A stretch of DNA of 9,702 nucleotides from Synergistaceae bacterium (GTDB taxonomy: Bacteria; Synergistota; Synergistia; Synergistales; Aminobacteriaceae). Under the pieces are notes generated by a model, which worked only from the letters and a program-made list of their open reading frames with translations, was not told the origin of the DNA and ran no database searches. The stretch lies in NCBI GenBank assembly GCA_017455085.1, contig JAFTBT010000014.1, positions 1 through 9,702 of the forward strand, in the 5' to 3' direction. Shown piece after piece: positions 1,422-7,917 of this stretch. Each line of letters begins with the position of its first letter. Positions within the stretch are counted from its first letter, which is position 1. Made by a program: the position numbers and the translations under genes.

Positions 1422-2150
1422 ATGACAGAATACGCACAAGACATTATCAACGAAGTTCAACGCATACTTGACAAGCACAAGGGGTTCATCGTGTTCTCGC
1501 AGGTAGCCTCATCACTCAGCAAAGACCTTCGGGATAAGCTGTACATCAAGGGCAACACTTCCGCAAAGATCGTCAGGAAAATACTCATGCCCGTACTTGA
1601 GGAAAACTTCGTCATACGCAAAAATCGCGGGACATACATACTCAAGCCGCTCGATCCGGAAGAATTTGTGTATGCGTGGCTCTCTGATGGTAAGCCCATG
1701 ACTCTGAATGAGCTTGTGAGGGCACTGAAGCCGTTCACGAAGAAGGAAGCTCTTGCACTGTTGACGGACATGGTGAACGCCGGAAAGGTCAGAGTCAGGT
1801 TTGAGGATTCGTATAAGGTGAATTTCTTTGCGTGTGGTGCTGGGAATCAGGCAGTTGGTGAGATCAGGCAGGTTCAGGCATTCAGGCCGGATGAGTTCAC
1901 ACAGGCGAAGTTTCGTGCGGCGTATGATGTGCTGCATACGTTCAGGGAGTTCGTGAGGATTTGCGATTTACGCAGGAGTCTCGGCTGGCCGCGTGAGGTG
2001 TTTGACGGAATGATTCGGGCTTTGCGAGACAACAGGACTATACGCGTAATTCGGGCTGATGAATCCGAGTTGACACAGGACGAGATTCGGGACTCCTTCA
2101 TTGACGAGAACAAAATATTGATGGGGTTAATAACTTGGCATGGAAGATAA
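1422..2150 (+). CDS. Winged-helix DNA-binding-type protein, first gene of the operon
   Basis: I do not recognise a named family. The 242-residue protein is soluble, charged and appears to be built from three winged-helix-like units: residues about 6-75 (helices ending in a VIRKNRGTYIL wing), about 80-136 (TLNELVRALKPFTKKEALALLTDM.. then KVRVRFEDSYKVNFF) and about 160-237 (a helical block with VRICDLRRSLGWPREVFDGMI followed by strands and ILMGLITW). This pattern suggests DNA binding or a protein scaffold. It has no transmembrane segment and no visible enzyme motif. The start is supported by AAGGGGTG at 1403-1410. The last 11 nt overlap the following ATPase gene, so the two are probably translated together. 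It could be the regulator of the operon or the DNA-recognition subunit of the ATPase and nuclease that follow; the sequence does not decide between them. Confidence 0.85.
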   Translation: MTEYAQDIINEVQRILDKHKGFIVFSQVASSLSKDLRDKLYIKGNTSAKIVRKILMPVLEENFVIRKNRGTYILKPLDPEEFVYAWLSDGKPMTLNELVRALKPFTKKEALALLTDMVNAGKVRVRFEDSYKVNFFACGAGNQAVGEIRQVQAFRPDEFTQAKFRAAYDVLHTFREFVRICDLRRSLGWPREVFDGMIRALRDNRTIRVIRADESELTQDEIRDSFIDENKILMGLITWHGR

Positions 2151-4101
2151 AAAGATATTTGAGCAGCTTAATGCTGATAACCCGTTCATATCGTCGTCAG
2201 ATCCTCTTCCGTGGGATAATAATAGTCCCGATCTATCACAGCTCAACAGCGAAGTATCAGCAGAGATCGAACAGCTCATACTAGCAAAACGCAGAGAGCC
2301 TTCACTGCCTATTACAGGGCTGATTTTCGGTGAGGCAGGCTTAGGAAAGACACACATTCTTTCACGAATCCTCCGCAAGATCCGAAAAAACGCGTGGAAG
2401 ATAATTTTTGTTGCGGTCAGGACGTTCACTAACCCCAAGAGATTACATCAGGAATTACTCTCTGAGATTATGCTCTCCATGAACAACCAGCACAGCGAAG
2501 GCCGCACACAGTTCGATATGCTGATGGATGAGGTCATGAATGCTTACCGTGAACGCAGAATTGATGACACCTTCACAAGCGTACCGGATACTGACCTGAA
2601 TTTTTACCTGAAACACGACCTGAAGGGCATAGACAAGAATTTTCTGAAGTGTATTGTGCGGTATCTAGGCACTGACGACAGAATCACGAAGGAGAATATT
2701 CTAGAGTGGCTGCGTGAGGGACTCGATGAGGACGACTCTCAAGCACTTGGCCTGCCGTTACGTGAGGCCTCTGAACTGGACGACACAGCATGTGAGATTT
2801 TCGCCAAGAACATCATAATCTCTCTGGGAAGTCTGTTAGCGTATGCTCATATCCCAATGGTTATTTGCTTTGACGAGCTGGACAACATGAAGCACAACAA
2901 AGAGCTTATAGAAGTATGGGGTGACTCTGTGGCCTTCATGATGAATACTATATCCGGAGTACTGCCTCTGTGTTTCATCAAGAGCAATGTTTGGGATGAA
3001 ATATTTCGTCCGGCACTTAACTTGTCAATCGTTCAGCGTCTGGAAGCTGGCAAGATAATAATGCAGGGCTGCACAATCTCCCAAGCTAAACAGCTCATCC
3101 ACGACAGAATCGCCGCAAAATTCCCTGACACTGCGGAGGAAAAATACCACTGGCTGCTCTCCAGAATGGCAAATACTCTCACAGAAGGCATCTCACCGCG
3201 AGAAGTCCTCAGGTTCGCACGTCAAGCCCTCCGTAACGGTGAGGCCATCGACTCCATCACGGAAGCCTACGACGAAGAATCCCGCAAAATCCAGTCCGTC
3301 CCAAGTGCTTGGCCCCCTAACTCCGAACACCTCACCACTGCACTGCGCGAATGGCTCACATCACACAATGACGTGAAGATTCTCGGAGGCTACGGAAAGT
3401 ACATCAAGCTCGTTGCTACTCTCGGCGGAAAAACCTTCGCTTTCTGCACAATAGCTCCCAAAGCCGCGACTACTGCATCCGCAAGCGCAAATGAATGCTG
3501 CAAATATCTGGACGAATACCCACGAAGTTCTTGCGTATACATCATGGACAAGAGAGCCTATAAACCAACGTGGCAGAAGTTCATCGCAAAGCTCGCAGAA
3601 TTTCGCAGCAAGGGCGGAAGAGTCCTCGAACTCGACAGCGACTCACGCATAGACTGGTACGCACTCGCCTCACTCGTCAACCAAATATCCAGCGGCAACG
3701 TGAATCTCTACAGCATAACCGGCAGCAGGACAGCAAAACTTCAGGACGCAGGTGCATTCATCAGGAGCATAGACCTAGTGCCGGGACTGTTCCCCAAATC
3801 CCACGCAACACCACCAAAGCCCGCGCATGTACTGCTCACAAAGCCAGAGCCTCCCAAGCCCGAACCTCAAGAGTCCCCAGTAGTGATTCCCGATACTACC
3901 GAGCTGAAAGATGCCGTTATGAGCTTCCTCAAGGGCTATCCGATGAACATTCTGGGTTCAGAAAAACTCTTGAGCCTCTTGGCCGGAAAAGGTATCACGA
4001 TATCGCGTGAGGGCCTGTTGGCGTTCGTGAACCTGCATAAAGACTCCTTCAGGGCTTATCCCGCAAGAAACGGCTCTGACGTAGTGATAGGTTTACGCTG
4101 A
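2140..4101 (+). CDS. AAA+/STAND-like P-loop ATPase with C-terminal winged-helix-like domain
   Basis: This 653-residue protein has a clear nucleotide-binding core. Walker A is GEAGLGKTH at 64-72 and Walker B is MVICFDELDN at 240-249, with a candidate sensor segment LPLCFIKSNVWDE at 275-287 and an arginine-containing lid at about 351-365 (ISPREVLRFARQA). A stretch of roughly 110 residues between strands (about 115-225) is longer than in minimal AAA+ modules. Residues about 395-550 form a second alpha/beta domain that I cannot assign. A proline/lysine-rich linker (about 557-582) leads to a compact 65-residue end (585-650) that looks like a winged helix. ATPases of this general shape (ORC/Cdc6-like, or the ATP-binding proteins of BREX-type systems) load or move proteins on DNA. 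Its position between a winged-helix protein and a nuclease suggests a DNA-directed motor or switch. The start overlaps the upstream gene by 11 nt and the stop is 1 nt from the nuclease start. Substrate and family remain unknown. Confidence 0.9.
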   Translation: MEDKKIFEQLNADNPFISSSDPLPWDNNSPDLSQLNSEVSAEIEQLILAKRREPSLPITGLIFGEAGLGKTHILSRILRKIRKNAWKIIFVAVRTFTNPKRLHQELLSEIMLSMNNQHSEGRTQFDMLMDEVMNAYRERRIDDTFTSVPDTDLNFYLKHDLKGIDKNFLKCIVRYLGTDDRITKENILEWLREGLDEDDSQALGLPLREASELDDTACEIFAKNIIISLGSLLAYAHIPMVICFDELDNMKHNKELIEVWGDSVAFMMNTISGVLPLCFIKSNVWDEIFRPALNLSIVQRLEAGKIIMQGCTISQAKQLIHDRIAAKFPDTAEEKYHWLLSRMANTLTEGISPREVLRFARQALRNGEAIDSITEAYDEESRKIQSVPSAWPPNSEHLTTALREWLTSHNDVKILGGYGKYIKLVATLGGKTFAFCTIAPKAATTASASANECCKYLDEYPRSSCVYIMDKRAYKPTWQKFIAKLAEFRSKGGRVLELDSDSRIDWYALASLVNQISSGNVNLYSITGSRTAKLQDAGAFIRSIDLVPGLFPKSHATPPKPAHVLLTKPEPPKPEPQESPVVIPDTTELKDAVMSFLKGYPMNILGSEKLLSLLAGKGITISREGLLAFVNLHKDSFRAYPARNGSDVVIGLR

Positions 4102-4102
4102 A

Positions 4103-5599
4103 ATGTTCAGGACTGTGTACGCAAACGCAAGTGATATCGCACTCTGCCAAAGGTGTCCGGCACTGTTCGGCTACAAGATACACATGCACGAGAAAAACGC
4201 CTGGCAGGTCGGCATCAAGGGCAGCGGCTACTATTACGGCTCCATGTTCCACAGGAATATCGCTCGTCCGTTCTTCGAGGCAGCGGCCAATCCGGAGCAC
4301 CATCTTCACGCTGAGGCAGTCCGTGCAGTCTCAGGAAACAGGGCAGACCTTGAGAGATTTATGCGTGAAAGAATCTTCATGCCGTTCATGGAGCAGCATT
4401 CAGGGGAGTATTCTCAAGGGCAGATCATGGCGGCAGCTCGCGGCGTGAAAGTCTGGGAGGACGCTATGTCGGACTTCTTCGCGGAAATACCTTCATTGAG
4501 CAGGCATCCGGAGGGAGCTGTGAGGGCTGTGTTTCTCCGGCCGGAGCAGAAATTACAGGCAAAGTATGATTTTCCCAATGAAGGGAGTCTTGTAGTTACT
4601 GGGTGCTATGACGCTCTGATGTTCAACCCAGACGGAGTCGAAGCCAGACTGTTCGAGTTCAAGGGGTACGCGAAAAGTGATATAGCTGTCCCGTTGTCGC
4701 AAAGCCTGATTTATGCGTGGCTCATATGGGAATATGCGGGGATAATGCCTTCGCTTGAGATCATATATCTGGATGATGAGGACAGAAAACCGGTTGTGTT
4801 CGACAGCGTGAGCGTGAATAGAATGATTGATGCAGGACTGCCTGGATTGTTTTACTCAGCATTCAACACTATAACTTTAAGGAGGATGCCGGAAATTATG
4901 AGGGATAAAAATTTGTGCAAGGTGTGCAGATTCAGTAATACTTGCGCTTCTGACTGGGGGGCAAAGTTCGGGAAAAGATCAGGTGCGTCTGACTCGGCCG
5001 GTCCGTTCAGGAAAAGAGCAGGGGCATCACTGGTGAATGTGTGCGTGTTTTTCTTGGCGGCTACGATGATCATGGCGCAGGTGTTTTTCTTCTCCACAAC
5101 GTCAACTGAAAACCTCGCCGAAGAGACTAAAGCAACCGCACGAAGATTCTCAATGGACAGGAAGCTGGAGCTGGCTTTTACGAAACTGAAGGACGAGAGT
5201 AACCATATAACTTCTGCTCCGGTAGAGACACCTATAGCTTTTGCTGACGACGTAGGCATAACAGACGCAGGCATAATAGCAGATAATTTTGTGGGCTTTC
5301 ACAGGGGGACACGTGTATACTCTGACGACGTAAATCAGGTATATATCTACAACCTGAACTACACGCTGCTATCGGTAGATTATGCTGCTCATGAAACATC
5401 GGCTAATTACTGGGACGCAGTTCCTATCCCGCAGAGAATCTTTCCGCCTATGAGTGCAGACCGTTTTCTGGTCAGGATACTTTCTCCGAGACAGGGACTC
5501 GGCAAAAAACTCATGTATCAGGTCCTAGTCTCACGAGATTCTTCCGTCATCCCCTACAAGATTACGCCCCTAACGTTTCAGGAGGTGTGGTACGAATAA
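4103..5599 (+). CDS. Cas4/RecB-like PD-(D/E)XK nuclease fused to a membrane-anchored pilin-like domain
   Basis: Residues 1-285 match the Cas4/RecB exonuclease layout: cysteines LCQRC at 14-18, GSMFH at 46-50 (family G..xH motif), GCYD with Asp170, EFK at 185-187, QSLIY at 200-204, and a C-terminal cysteine cluster LCKVC..C with Cys272, Cys275 and Cys281. The nuclease motifs are complete and the cysteines would hold an iron-sulfur cluster, so this half looks active and cytoplasmic. The frame continues without a stop through FGKRSGAS and FRKRAGAS into one hydrophobic helix (about 308-329), then about 165 residues likely to lie outside the inner membrane. KRAG followed by ASLVNVCVFF resembles the leader and N-terminal helix of PilX/GspK-type pilins, which lack Glu at +5. 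The segment lies directly before the pilM-like gene. No ATG, GTG or TTG codon exists in frame just before the leader; GTG at 5033 lies inside the helix. A real fusion, an internal start, or a lost stop or frameshift near the G-run at 4956-4961 remain possible. Confidence 0.88.
   Translation: MFRTVYANASDIALCQRCPALFGYKIHMHEKNAWQVGIKGSGYYYGSMFHRNIARPFFEAAANPEHHLHAEAVRAVSGNRADLERFMRERIFMPFMEQHSGEYSQGQIMAAARGVKVWEDAMSDFFAEIPSLSRHPEGAVRAVFLRPEQKLQAKYDFPNEGSLVVTGCYDALMFNPDGVEARLFEFKGYAKSDIAVPLSQSLIYAWLIWEYAGIMPSLEIIYLDDEDRKPVVFDSVSVNRMIDAGLPGLFYSAFNTITLRRMPEIMRDKNLCKVCRFSNTCASDWGAKFGKRSGASDSAGPFRKRAGASLVNVCVFFLAATMIMAQVFFFSTTSTENLAEETKATARRFSMDRKLELAFTKLKDESNHITSAPVETPIAFADDVGITDAGIIADNFVGFHRGTRVYSDDVNQVYIYNLNYTLLSVDYAAHETSANYWDAVPIPQRIFPPMSADRFLVRILSPRQGLGKKLMYQVLVSRDSSVIPYKITPLTFQEVWYE
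4967..5029 (+). repeat. Imperfect 24-nt direct repeat at the nuclease/pilin-like junction
   Basis: TTCGGGAAAAGATCAGGTGC (4967-4986, continuing to 4990) and TTCAGGAAAAGAGCAGGGGC (5006-5025, continuing to 5029) agree at 19 of 24 positions, 39 nt (13 codons) apart and in the same frame. They encode FGKRSGAS and FRKRAGAS, both resembling the basic leader before a prepilin cleavage site. The repeat sits exactly where the nuclease ends and the membrane segment begins, which fits a local duplication during the joining of two genes. Confidence 0.6.
5580..5585 (+). promoter_or_regulatory. Ribosome binding site fixing the PilM-PilN start at 5599
   Basis: AGGAGG lies inside the last codons of the nuclease/pilin-like gene. 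An in-frame GTG at 5587 is only 1 nt away and too close to be used, whereas ATG at 5599 is 13 nt away and forms a TAATG overlap with the upstream stop. The ATG is therefore preferred, and translation of the two genes is probably coupled. Confidence 0.7.
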
Positions 5600-6984
5600 T
5601 GCCTATATCTTTCAGGAAAAATATCGCGCAGGGAAATTCCGCAGGCCTCGCGATTCATAACGACTGCCTAAGATTTCTGGAGATTGACGAGGACAACAAC
5701 CCTGTCCGTCAGGAAACTGTCCCGTTAATGGAGGGCTGCATACAGAACAGCACCATCAAGAATTTCGACATGCTGGAGGCCGCTTTTACCGAAATCTACA
5801 AACTCATCGGCAGGCTTCGTGAACCGGTCATGATAGGCCTTCCCAACGGAGACACGATAATACGCATGATTAGCCTCCCAAACATGAGCATTGATGACGT
5901 TCGCGGAACTATAGACCTGAATTTTGACGAGTACTTCCCGTATCCGAGAGATGATGCTGTTTTCGACACATTGCGCGTGATCACTCCTGCCGACACAAAC
6001 AACGAGAATGCCGATATCACTGCTCTCACCGTTGCCGCAAAAAAGGACACCGTCGAAAGAATCCTGGACATCGCCAGAAAAGCCGGACTCCCCGCCGGTG
6101 CTGTTGAGCCGTTGAGCTTCTCGATGCTGAGGGCTATTCCGGAGGCTCAGGAGGGCTTGAGCATATTCGCGAACCCCGACACAGTTATTGCAGTCTATGA
6201 GGGAAACGGAATTTTCTTCAGGTCCGCCAATAATCTCAGCGGTGCGCAGGACATCTTGAACACAATGCAGTTCACCGAGACCACATACAGGCACGTGCGG
6301 GTGAGCAAACTGATTCTTGCGGGGCTGAATTTCCAGATAAGTCCGGACTCAGGCATGAACGTGGTGAATATCACGGACGAGTATTTTGCGGCCAAGAGTC
6401 TGGCTCTCAGGAATCAGGAGGAGACACAGAAACTTGACCTGCGCCCGATGGAGTACGTTGAGCTTGAGCGCAGAAGGTATTCGTTCAACCCGAACAGGCT
6501 GGTATTCTGGGGGCTGCTTGTGGGATTCGTGATGCTGTCGATAGGCACGATATCTTTTGCGTGGATGAGGATACGAGATATTGATTTGGCTCTGGAGGAT
6601 AAGAGAGTCTCGAACACTGACCTGATGAGTCAGCGGGCGGCTTTGGCTCGGAGGAATGCTGACCTTGAGAAAAGACAGCTGGAGACCGAACGGATTCTGA
6701 ACTTCCTGAAGGGCGATATACCTGTGCTTGAGATCATGAGTGCAATCGAGAAACATTTTGCTGCCGGTGTGAAGCTGGACAATGCAGATTTTTCGCGGAA
6801 TGCTGCAACGGGAGTTACTGTAGTGATTGACGGGAAGGCGAATGATGAGAGGGCTATACTCGCTATGACTGAAGGCCTGAAGAGCAGCGGGGCATTTAGT
6901 GAGGTCAGGCTGCCGGTGTCTATGAGGGCGATGACGGGGCAGGTGATTTTCAAGTTGATACTCCGCGTGAAGGAGGTGATCTAG
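5599..6984 (+). CDS. PilM-PilN (GspL-like) fusion, inner-membrane assembly platform protein
   Basis: In type IV pili, PilM is a cytoplasmic actin-like protein bound to PilN; in type II secretion GspL combines both roles. Here one 461-residue chain does so. Residues 1 to about 270 are PilM-like, with ISLPNMSIDDVRGTIDLNFD at 91-110 followed by EYFPYPRDD, the family's switch and docking region. The later nucleotide-binding part (DTVIAVYEGNGIFFRS at 194-209) lacks the usual Asp-x-Gly, so nucleotide binding may be weak. KLDLRPMEYVELERRR at 278-293 resembles the pre-membrane motif of PilN. One membrane helix spans about 301-322, a charged coiled coil about 325-370, and a ferredoxin-like periplasmic domain about 373-461. 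The start is ATG at 5599, overlapping the previous stop by 1 nt. Two prepilins follow immediately. A PilO/GspM partner, normally next, is absent from the window unless the pilin-like domain upstream fills that place. Confidence 0.85.
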   Translation: MPISFRKNIAQGNSAGLAIHNDCLRFLEIDEDNNPVRQETVPLMEGCIQNSTIKNFDMLEAAFTEIYKLIGRLREPVMIGLPNGDTIIRMISLPNMSIDDVRGTIDLNFDEYFPYPRDDAVFDTLRVITPADTNNENADITALTVAAKKDTVERILDIARKAGLPAGAVEPLSFSMLRAIPEAQEGLSIFANPDTVIAVYEGNGIFFRSANNLSGAQDILNTMQFTETTYRHVRVSKLILAGLNFQISPDSGMNVVNITDEYFAAKSLALRNQEETQKLDLRPMEYVELERRRYSFNPNRLVFWGLLVGFVMLSIGTISFAWMRIRDIDLALEDKRVSNTDLMSQRAALARRNADLEKRQLETERILNFLKGDIPVLEIMSAIEKHFAAGVKLDNADFSRNAATGVTVVIDGKANDERAILAMTEGLKSSGAFSEVRLPVSMRAMTGQVIFKLILRVKEVI

Positions 6985-6985
6985 T

Positions 6986-7462
6986 ATGAAGAAAGTAGCG
7001 TTTACGTTGACGGAGGTGCTTGTTGCTATAACTATCATGTCGATCATGGCGGGAGTTATGGCGTTGACTTCGGCAACAGTTGGACAGCAGACTGCCAAAC
7101 GTGAAGCAGAGAGGGTAGCGGCATTTATTCAGGGACACATCAGCAGGGAGAATATAGCTCAGCGTGGATTATGGTTTGAGGTGAAGACGGACACCATTGA
7201 AGTGTGGAATGGCTTGAAGAGTAATACGAATGTAGTCCCGAAGCTCAATGCGAATCATGGCTGTAGTTATAGTGCCTCAACTGCAAAACTGTGCTATAAC
7301 ATTAGGGGAAATATTCTGCTGCAAGGAAATATGACATCATGGAAATTGATTTCAGCGGACAGCACTGTCGTCACTGAAGAAGGAACGAACGGGCAGCACT
7401 ATATCAGAGTTCAAGGAGCTGACAACAAATTTTTGAACGTAATCATAGGGAGAAAGCTATGA
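6986..7462 (+). CDS. Type IV prepilin-like / minor pseudopilin (GspH/FimT type)
   Basis: The 158-residue protein opens with the prepilin signature KKVA then FTLTEVLVAIT: a short basic leader, a hydrophobic helix (about 6-29) and Glu at mature position +5 (Glu10). The residue before the predicted cleavage point is Ala rather than the usual Gly. The helix continues into a polar segment with EAERVAAFIQ at 40-49, then a beta-rich globular part with GCSY at 92-95 and a second cysteine at 103, which could form a disulfide. Size and order fit a minor pseudopilin that primes or caps a short pilus. AGGAGG at 6971-6976 lies 9 nt before the ATG. The stop overlaps the next gene's start as ATGA. The next gene is a diverged paralogue. 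Confidence 0.85.
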   Translation: MKKVAFTLTEVLVAITIMSIMAGVMALTSATVGQQTAKREAERVAAFIQGHISRENIAQRGLWFEVKTDTIEVWNGLKSNTNVVPKLNANHGCSYSASTAKLCYNIRGNILLQGNMTSWKLISADSTVVTEEGTNGQHYIRVQGADNKFLNVIIGRKL

Positions 7463-7917
7463 AACGCAGAGCAGTATCAATAGTAGAGCTGAGTATAGGG
7501 ATTGCTTTGCTGGCATTTCTAGCGGCACAGATATCTCTCAGCATGACTCTCACTACACATACTCCTAAGCATGAAGCGGAAAGGCTGGCCAAAAAACTCT
7601 CCAGCCTCATGCTCAAGGCAGACAAGACTCAGACTCATTTCCAGATAGAGATAGAGCCCGACAAGATGTATATCCAGTGGAACACAAGCGAGACAAGCAT
7701 AGTCAAGCAGGCAGACAGAGACAAATTCACGGAGACATTTCCTGCGAGTTCCGGCTGTAGTTACGAATGGAATGCCCCCAACAAAATCGTCTACTACTCC
7801 CACATCACGAATAAGTTCTCTCAAGGAGCAACCATAACCATAACAGGAAACGGAGACCCGTACTACATAAAGATAGCCACGATAGGGAGCAGGGTAAGGC
7901 TTTCAGATACCCCCTAG
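7459..7917 (+). CDS. Type IV prepilin-like / minor pseudopilin, paralogue of the preceding gene
   Basis: This 152-residue protein starts KRRA then VSIVELSIGI: basic leader, hydrophobic helix (about 6-29) and Glu at mature +5 (Glu10). As in its neighbour, Ala replaces Gly before the predicted cleavage point. The two proteins share EAERLA/EAERVA at 39-44 and GCSY (99-102 here) at comparable places, so they probably arose by duplication, but the C-terminal halves have diverged and this one has a single cysteine (Cys100). The ATG overlaps the previous stop (ATGA), with AGGGAGA at 7447-7453. It is the last gene of the plus-strand operon and ends 6 nt from the end of ddl. I see no good terminator in that gap, so transcription may read into the antisense of ddl. 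Confidence 0.83.
   Translation: MKRRAVSIVELSIGIALLAFLAAQISLSMTLTTHTPKHEAERLAKKLSSLMLKADKTQTHFQIEIEPDKMYIQWNTSETSIVKQADRDKFTETFPASSGCSYEWNAPNKIVYYSHITNKFSQGATITITGNGDPYYIKIATIGSRVRLSDTP

Follow-up and report, generated by a model that had tools for sequence, protein, structure and literature searches.

How a nuclease and a pilin can come to share one reading frame, and whether the cell keeps the two joined, is the question raised by a 498-codon ORF at positions 4103..5599 (+ strand) of the window, by which we mean the whole 9,702-nucleotide stretch of Synergistaceae DNA analysed here. The frame begins with ATG and is open end to end, as an earlier note made from the sequence alone had read it. 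We suspect, with a probability of roughly two in three, that the ORF encodes a two-protein precursor, which prepilin peptidase would cut into a cytoplasmic nuclease and a tip-type minor pilin lacking Glu5. The fusion itself is real, family-wide and unusual.

The ORF is part of a compact operon on the + strand that comprises a gene for a 242-aa protein, an AAA/ORC-like ATPase gene, the nuclease-pilin ORF, a PilM-PilN gene and two pilin-like genes. The 242-aa protein (1422..2150) is, by synteny, the product of the first gene of a conserved three-gene set, which also includes the ATPase and the nuclease and which the earlier note had not seen; it had no family match in Pfam, PADLOC and NCBIfam scans, and a wHTH was seen by eye only. 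The ATPase (653 aa, 2140..4101) is recognised by PF13401 (1.9e-7, above cut-off) and by synteny. Downstream, the ATG of the PilM-PilN fusion (5599..6984) overlaps the TAA of the nuclease-pilin ORF; PilM_2 is matched above cut-off (2.7e-15) and PilN below it (0.0079). PilM and PilN form one gene in the window and are separate in relatives such as G011 and G020, which makes this a second fusion of the same operon. The next gene (6986..7462) encodes a GspH-like minor pilin with the short leader MKKVA ahead of FTLTE, matched by TIGR02532 above cut-off, by N_methyl just below it (5.9e-4) and by GspH below it (2e-6). The last (7459..7917) was recognised by eye as encoding a minor pilin-like protein with the short leader MKRRA ahead of VSIVE, and no pilin model matches it in the Pfam and NCBIfam scans. 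The - strand carries frames read as rsmH and ddl. At its N-terminus the RsmH-like frame (256-1326) carries about 65 extra residues, which are rich in Thr-Pro repeats and encoded by a tandem-repeat array, with no further ATG, GTG or TTG ahead of its core, unlike its counterpart in L001, a Synergistaceae MAG that is the closest named genome to the window. A Pfam scan of seven other stretches of the window (the rsmH and ddl frames left out) gave no match to Cas genes.

By its motifs and weak Cas4 profile matches, the first part of the ORF (residues 1-284, 4103..4954) is a Cas4/RecB-like PD-(D/E)XK nuclease, for which nuclease activity and an Fe-S cluster are predicted. The complete set of motifs and flanking cysteines described in the earlier note is present, with GSMFH at 46-50, D170, E185-F-K187, Q200..Y204, C15/C18 and C272/C275/C281; a four-cysteine pattern is a feature of Cas4. 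Two family alignments, one of 34 rows and one of 97 rows (A2, which consists of fused proteins and includes that of the window), keep the catalytic residues and more invariant: H50, D170, E185, K187, Q200, Y204, C272, C275 and C281. C18 is invariant in the smaller alignment and conserved in at least 90% of the larger. The likeness to Cas4/RecB nucleases thus lies in the motif order, the cysteine pattern and the weak matches, which cover residues 151-283: the PADLOC Cas4 model matched the full ORF at 2.8e-5 and TIGR00372 (Cas4) reached 0.00045 (20.1 bits versus a cut-off of 65). PF01930 scored 11.8 versus a Cas4 cut-off of 22.7. The window nuclease differs from Cas4 in lying far below cut-off, in going with genes for the 242-aa protein and the AAA ATPase, and in belonging to a group that is joined to a pilin or to FtsK. 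A profile of the 97 fused proteins matched no relative of solved structure at E values up to 1.

The frame then runs from W285 through RKRAG307 into A308..F330 and on to residues 331-498. A linker that varies among relatives (residues 285-302, 4955..5008) leads to RKRAG (303-307, 5009..5023), the charged end of a prepilin-type leader, and the predicted prepilin peptidase cut falls after Gly307, between 5023 and 5024. The membrane helix that follows (308-330, 5024..5092, with Asn at +5) is recognised as an N-terminal pilin helix by homology to stand-alone minor pilins, and its 23 residues fit the rule of 20-25 mainly hydrophobic residues in type IV prepilins. Beyond it lie 168 residues of outer domain (331-498, 5093..5596), ending in FQEVWYE, a C-terminal motif that resembles those of stand-alone orthologues. 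The KRAG-type leader, single membrane helix and outer segment of the earlier note were all found, and its pilin-like second part is a minor pilin, judged by orthologous genes that stand alone beside pilM in relatives. No Pfam or NCBIfam model scored above cut-off for the pilin part, and no curated GspK or PilX model matched it or the proteins of L001, L090 and L096.

The last cysteine and the -1 residue are 10 to 27 residues apart across 126 fused rows. In the window, positions 4967-5029 of the linker region hold a partial 39-bp (13-residue) tandem repeat, FGKRSGAS / FRKRAGAS, in which 34 of 55 positions match at a shift of 39, compared with 16 and 12 at shifts of 36 and 42; P0002 has a clearer copy. 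Column conservation in A2 is lowest in the linker (0.15), against 0.70 in the nuclease, 0.74 in the leader and helix and 0.37 in the outer part, and the low linker value largely reflects gaps, because the 13-residue repeat of the window occurs in only 3 of the 97 rows. The outer domain appears to have been swapped in the pairs P0010/P0014, P0011/P0013 and P0037/P0038 (P0038 is incomplete), whose nucleases are 97-100% identical and whose outer domains are 37-39% identical. This looks like the diversification of an exposed pilin, with chimeric assembly as the alternative.

Is the joined frame a trait of the family or an accident of one contig? The window is a short contig, and the run of six G pointed out in the earlier note is indeed present at the junction (4956-4961). 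However, a protein search gave 167 relatives, and among the 120 listed the fused junction occurs in 101 (including the window's own P0001 and the truncated P0112). Another 14 are unfused and end at the cysteine cluster, and the pattern script left five unclassified, two of which (P0063 and P0109) read as fused. The nuclease is carried by 48 of 81 family genomes. Across the phylum, 51 of 185 genomes match the profile of the fused proteins; G014, G044 and G051 do so in the pilin part only, so among these 185 genomes the nuclease is found in one family alone. Nuclease and pilin are adjacent in 37 family genomes: 26 have nuclease, pilin leader and helix in one frame, ten have two genes, and one (G025) has a frame broken inside the nuclease. 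The possibility that all relatives might have two genes, which the earlier note had raised against itself, therefore fails. Relatives read through the place of the six-G run in the same frame, with no shared stop or frame break, which marks the junction as a family trait and not an indel artefact. Given so many fused relatives with invariant catalytic residues, an assembly error, frameshift or decaying gene is hardly credible for the window and is ruled out for the family.

Five of the 26 fused frames (G023, G042, G037, G059 and G050) run off the contig end in the pilin part or at its end. In G041 (locus L049) only the leader and helix are attached to the nuclease, and a separate full-length pilin gene lies behind. 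Here, at L049 6738-7092, the 5' end of the pilin gene is duplicated, giving nuclease, leader and helix, then a scar of repeats, then the full pilin; this can be decay or a sign that an anchored nuclease is useful. G077 holds a second copy with a broken frame. The remaining 11 of the 48 nuclease genomes comprise nine in which the nuclease is joined to FtsK (L066, L067, L070, L072-L074 and L076-L078, by match to the L001 FtsK), G067, whose frame is broken behind the nuclease, and G075, which has only the nuclease. The fusions to an FtsK/SpoIIIE motor form a sister branch, and upstream of them, too, lie the 242-aa and AAA genes; L074, the only one scanned, matches Pfam FtsK_SpoIIIE at 6.7e-38.

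The split genomes keep the two genes very close. The pilin start overlaps the nuclease stop as ATGA or GTGA in six of the ten, abuts it in one, and follows it by 4 and 17 bases in two others; no pilin start was recognised in L071. Nine of the ten thus have their own pilin start (eight ATG, one GTG), no more than 20 bases from the nuclease stop, with a leader of six residues ending in Gly, and several split loci have GGAGG-like sites within the last nuclease codons.

From the perspective of origin, pilin orthologues stand alone beside pilM in G014, G044, G051 and G011, and the pilin lies upstream of pilM in relatives. The nuclease was not found in the first three of these genomes, and in G011 it is encoded elsewhere, joined to FtsK. 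Three of the stand-alone orthologues end in WQEVWL, WREIWS and IEEIWI, like the FQEVWYE of the window; that of G051 ends in HEVHLTE. Because these orthologues stand alone beside pilM, the pilin is, judged from gene neighbourhoods, older than its partnership with the nuclease. On a quick tree, made without bootstrap, of 112 nuclease domains (81 fused, 21 split, 9 FtsK-joined and 1 other), the fused or split label changes 14 times, with at least seven changes forced by strongly supported (starred) branches. Short database proteins are the only source for 11 of the 21 split rows; leaving these rows out gives 10 changes, and using only the loci that were read (24 fused, 10 split) gives 7. Such counts do not tell fusion from fission.

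The residue at -1 bears most directly on whether the chain is cut. The last residue of a prepilin leader is invariably Gly or Ala, according to the relevant passages of PMC10191384, and among 81 non-redundant fusions the -1 residue is Gly in 77 and Ala in 4, while 12 kinds of residue occur at -2; in A2 the count is 94 Gly and 3 Ala of 97. Prepilin peptidase (PF01478) is encoded in 74 of the 81 family genomes and in 25 of the 26 fused genomes, 24 of them above cut-off: the draft G050 gave no match and the draft G056 only a fragment below cut-off. T2SSF is present in 80 and the secretin in 78 of the 81. A profile search found no second pilin copy in 25 of the 26 fused genomes, the exception being G041; in G037 and G059 the two ends of the pilin lie on different contigs. 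Since no stop separates the two parts, every completed nuclease would carry the pilin unless the chain were cut.

In the proposed scheme, nuclease and pilin would be made as one chain and helix 308-330 would insert into the membrane; by the charge rule for membrane topology, the nuclease would probably stay in the cytoplasm and the pilin head would lie on the outside. Prepilin peptidase, whose site faces the cytoplasm, would then cut after Gly307. The products would be a soluble nuclease that ends in a short RKRAG tail, and a mature minor pilin beginning ASLVN. The nuclease would in effect be an oversized leader, an enzyme of about 300 residues in place of a short disposable one, and the mature pilin may take its place at the tip of a type IV filament. 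Tip-type minor pilins without Glu5 are known, such as those of the GspK or PilX kind. The Glu that is usual, though not obligatory, at +5 is absent from the fusions, on which the earlier note made no remark; this residue is Asn in 50, Ser in 29, Gly in one and Thr in one of the 81. A filament-capping subunit without Glu5 appears in the passages of PMC10191384 on such subunits. With Glu5 lacking and the gene lying among minor pilins and pilM, the pilin most likely caps the filament tip.

A permanently anchored nuclease is the main alternative to cutting. The uncut chain would fix the enzyme to the inner membrane next to the pilus machine, the former pilin domain serving both as its anchor and as a contact in the periplasm, and the nuclease could act, for instance, on DNA entering by the pilus route. 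The ORF does encode one chain with one helix, the G041 nuclease keeps leader and helix although a full pilin follows separately, and a ComEC-type protein is encoded in 67 of the 81 family genomes. However, under permanent tethering the Gly/Ala rule at -1 should have decayed, and the pilin part has kept it, although this could partly be inherited helix packing. The fused pilin is also the only copy found in nearly all fused genomes, and its outer domain diversifies fast, as that of an exposed pilin would. An uncut domain of 300 residues should block filament assembly. Moreover, the repeated change between fused and split states speaks against a special role for the joined state. With Gly or Ala at -1 in 81 of 81 fusions and these repeated changes, a cut after Gly307, the first of the two alternatives in the earlier note, is better supported than tethering, the second, which we consider unlikely. 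Joining to the pilin looks rather like operon packing made harmless by the peptidase.

Could the working pilin instead be made separately by internal initiation, with the fused chain as a by-product? All 25 fused loci examined have an in-frame ATG, GTG or TTG, further upstream included, that would give leaders of 6-51 residues, so the fused chain may not be the sole source of pilin. In eight of the 25, a start codon precedes the -1 residue by 5-7 codons (those of L038, L041 and L043 sit behind GGAGG, as in split relatives), and in another eight one precedes it by 10-24 codons. The window has internal starts (ATG or other) for leaders of 46, 42, 37 and 34 residues; the starts for the 42-residue and 37-residue leaders lie 12 and 9 bases, respectively, behind a GAGG. 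Against this, nine of the 25 loci lack any start codon from the cysteine cluster to the cut, and the window is one of these nine; purine-rich arginine codons can yield GAGG by chance, and the fused frame would itself still be translated. We regard this as quite improbable, and an internally started pilin would still need the same cut. A further possibility is that both forms coexist, part of the chain staying uncut or the cutting being timed, with nuclease release coupled to pilus building. The joint occurrence of nuclease, ATPase and pilin genes in 37 genomes is in keeping with this, as is G039, where nuclease and pilin stay paired though the PilM-PilN gene is on another contig, a hint of a real tie to the pilus genes. 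No sequence sign of regulation was found at the junction, however, and such coexistence seems improbable.

What the nuclease does once freed by the proposed cut may be indicated by its neighbours. It lies behind the 242-aa and AAA genes in the loci read, whichever partner it is joined to, with the exceptions that L051 begins inside the AAA gene and that L072 and L073 have about 2 kb between AAA gene and nuclease. Because this gene set is conserved, the nuclease and its two neighbours, the AAA ATPase and the 242-aa protein, probably work together on cytoplasmic DNA. An ATPase homologue search gave 81 proteins, and every named source is Synergistaceae or Synergistales. We take the three-gene set to be a chromosomal DNA-processing unit rather than a mobile defence system, because the gene next upstream is rsmH in 23 of the 36 loci read in which the nuclease is linked to the pilin (several others end early) and the fused protein had no phage or plasmid match in either of two collections searched, which also led us to reject a phage or plasmid origin. 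A known defence system was likewise set aside: in PADLOC, the fused protein had weak Cas4 hits, the ATPase had P-loop hits and the 242-aa protein had none. The FtsK-joined L074 has an SspH hit in PADLOC (2.3e-58), through its FtsK part. A competence link was set aside as well, ComEC being too common in the family to discriminate. The tie between nuclease and pilus may be either functional, such as the handling of incoming DNA, or a matter of operon packing. We also entertain, tentatively, that the nuclease is held beside the pilus machine and released one for one as the tip pilin matures.

The pilin part shares with type IV prepilins (class III signal peptide) the leader ending in Gly or Ala after Lys/Arg, the hydrophobic stretch, the outer domain, the position beside pilM and the prepilin peptidase in the genomes; it differs in having a complete enzyme as leader and mostly Asn or Ser at +5. 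Modular pilins such as PilB and PilC of Streptococcus sanguinis also join a pilin to a foreign domain, as described in the passages of PMC10191384 on these proteins. Their grafted domain is displayed on the filament, whereas here the extra domain is N-terminal, predicted to be cytoplasmic and predicted to be removed. In the titles and abstract openings of the open-licence literature we found no description of a prepilin with an enzyme as leader, and none of the nuclease-ATPase gene set.

Prepilin leaders are usually treated as short disposable tags, reported at 6-51 residues in the part of PMC6916266 that lists them, and the predicted 307-residue leader of the window lies far beyond this range, which counts against the precursor reading, as the peptidase would have to accept a folded domain beside its site. 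A conserved family with a whole nuclease as leader would mean that prepilin peptidase is able to separate two working proteins, and the leader rules used to find pilins would be widened. The paired fused and split relatives make the cutting question directly testable. The fusion would also tie the nuclease-ATPase gene set to pilus genes, and if release is indeed one for one, starting a pilus would free a nuclease to act jointly with its AAA ATPase, possibly on DNA imported by the pilus.
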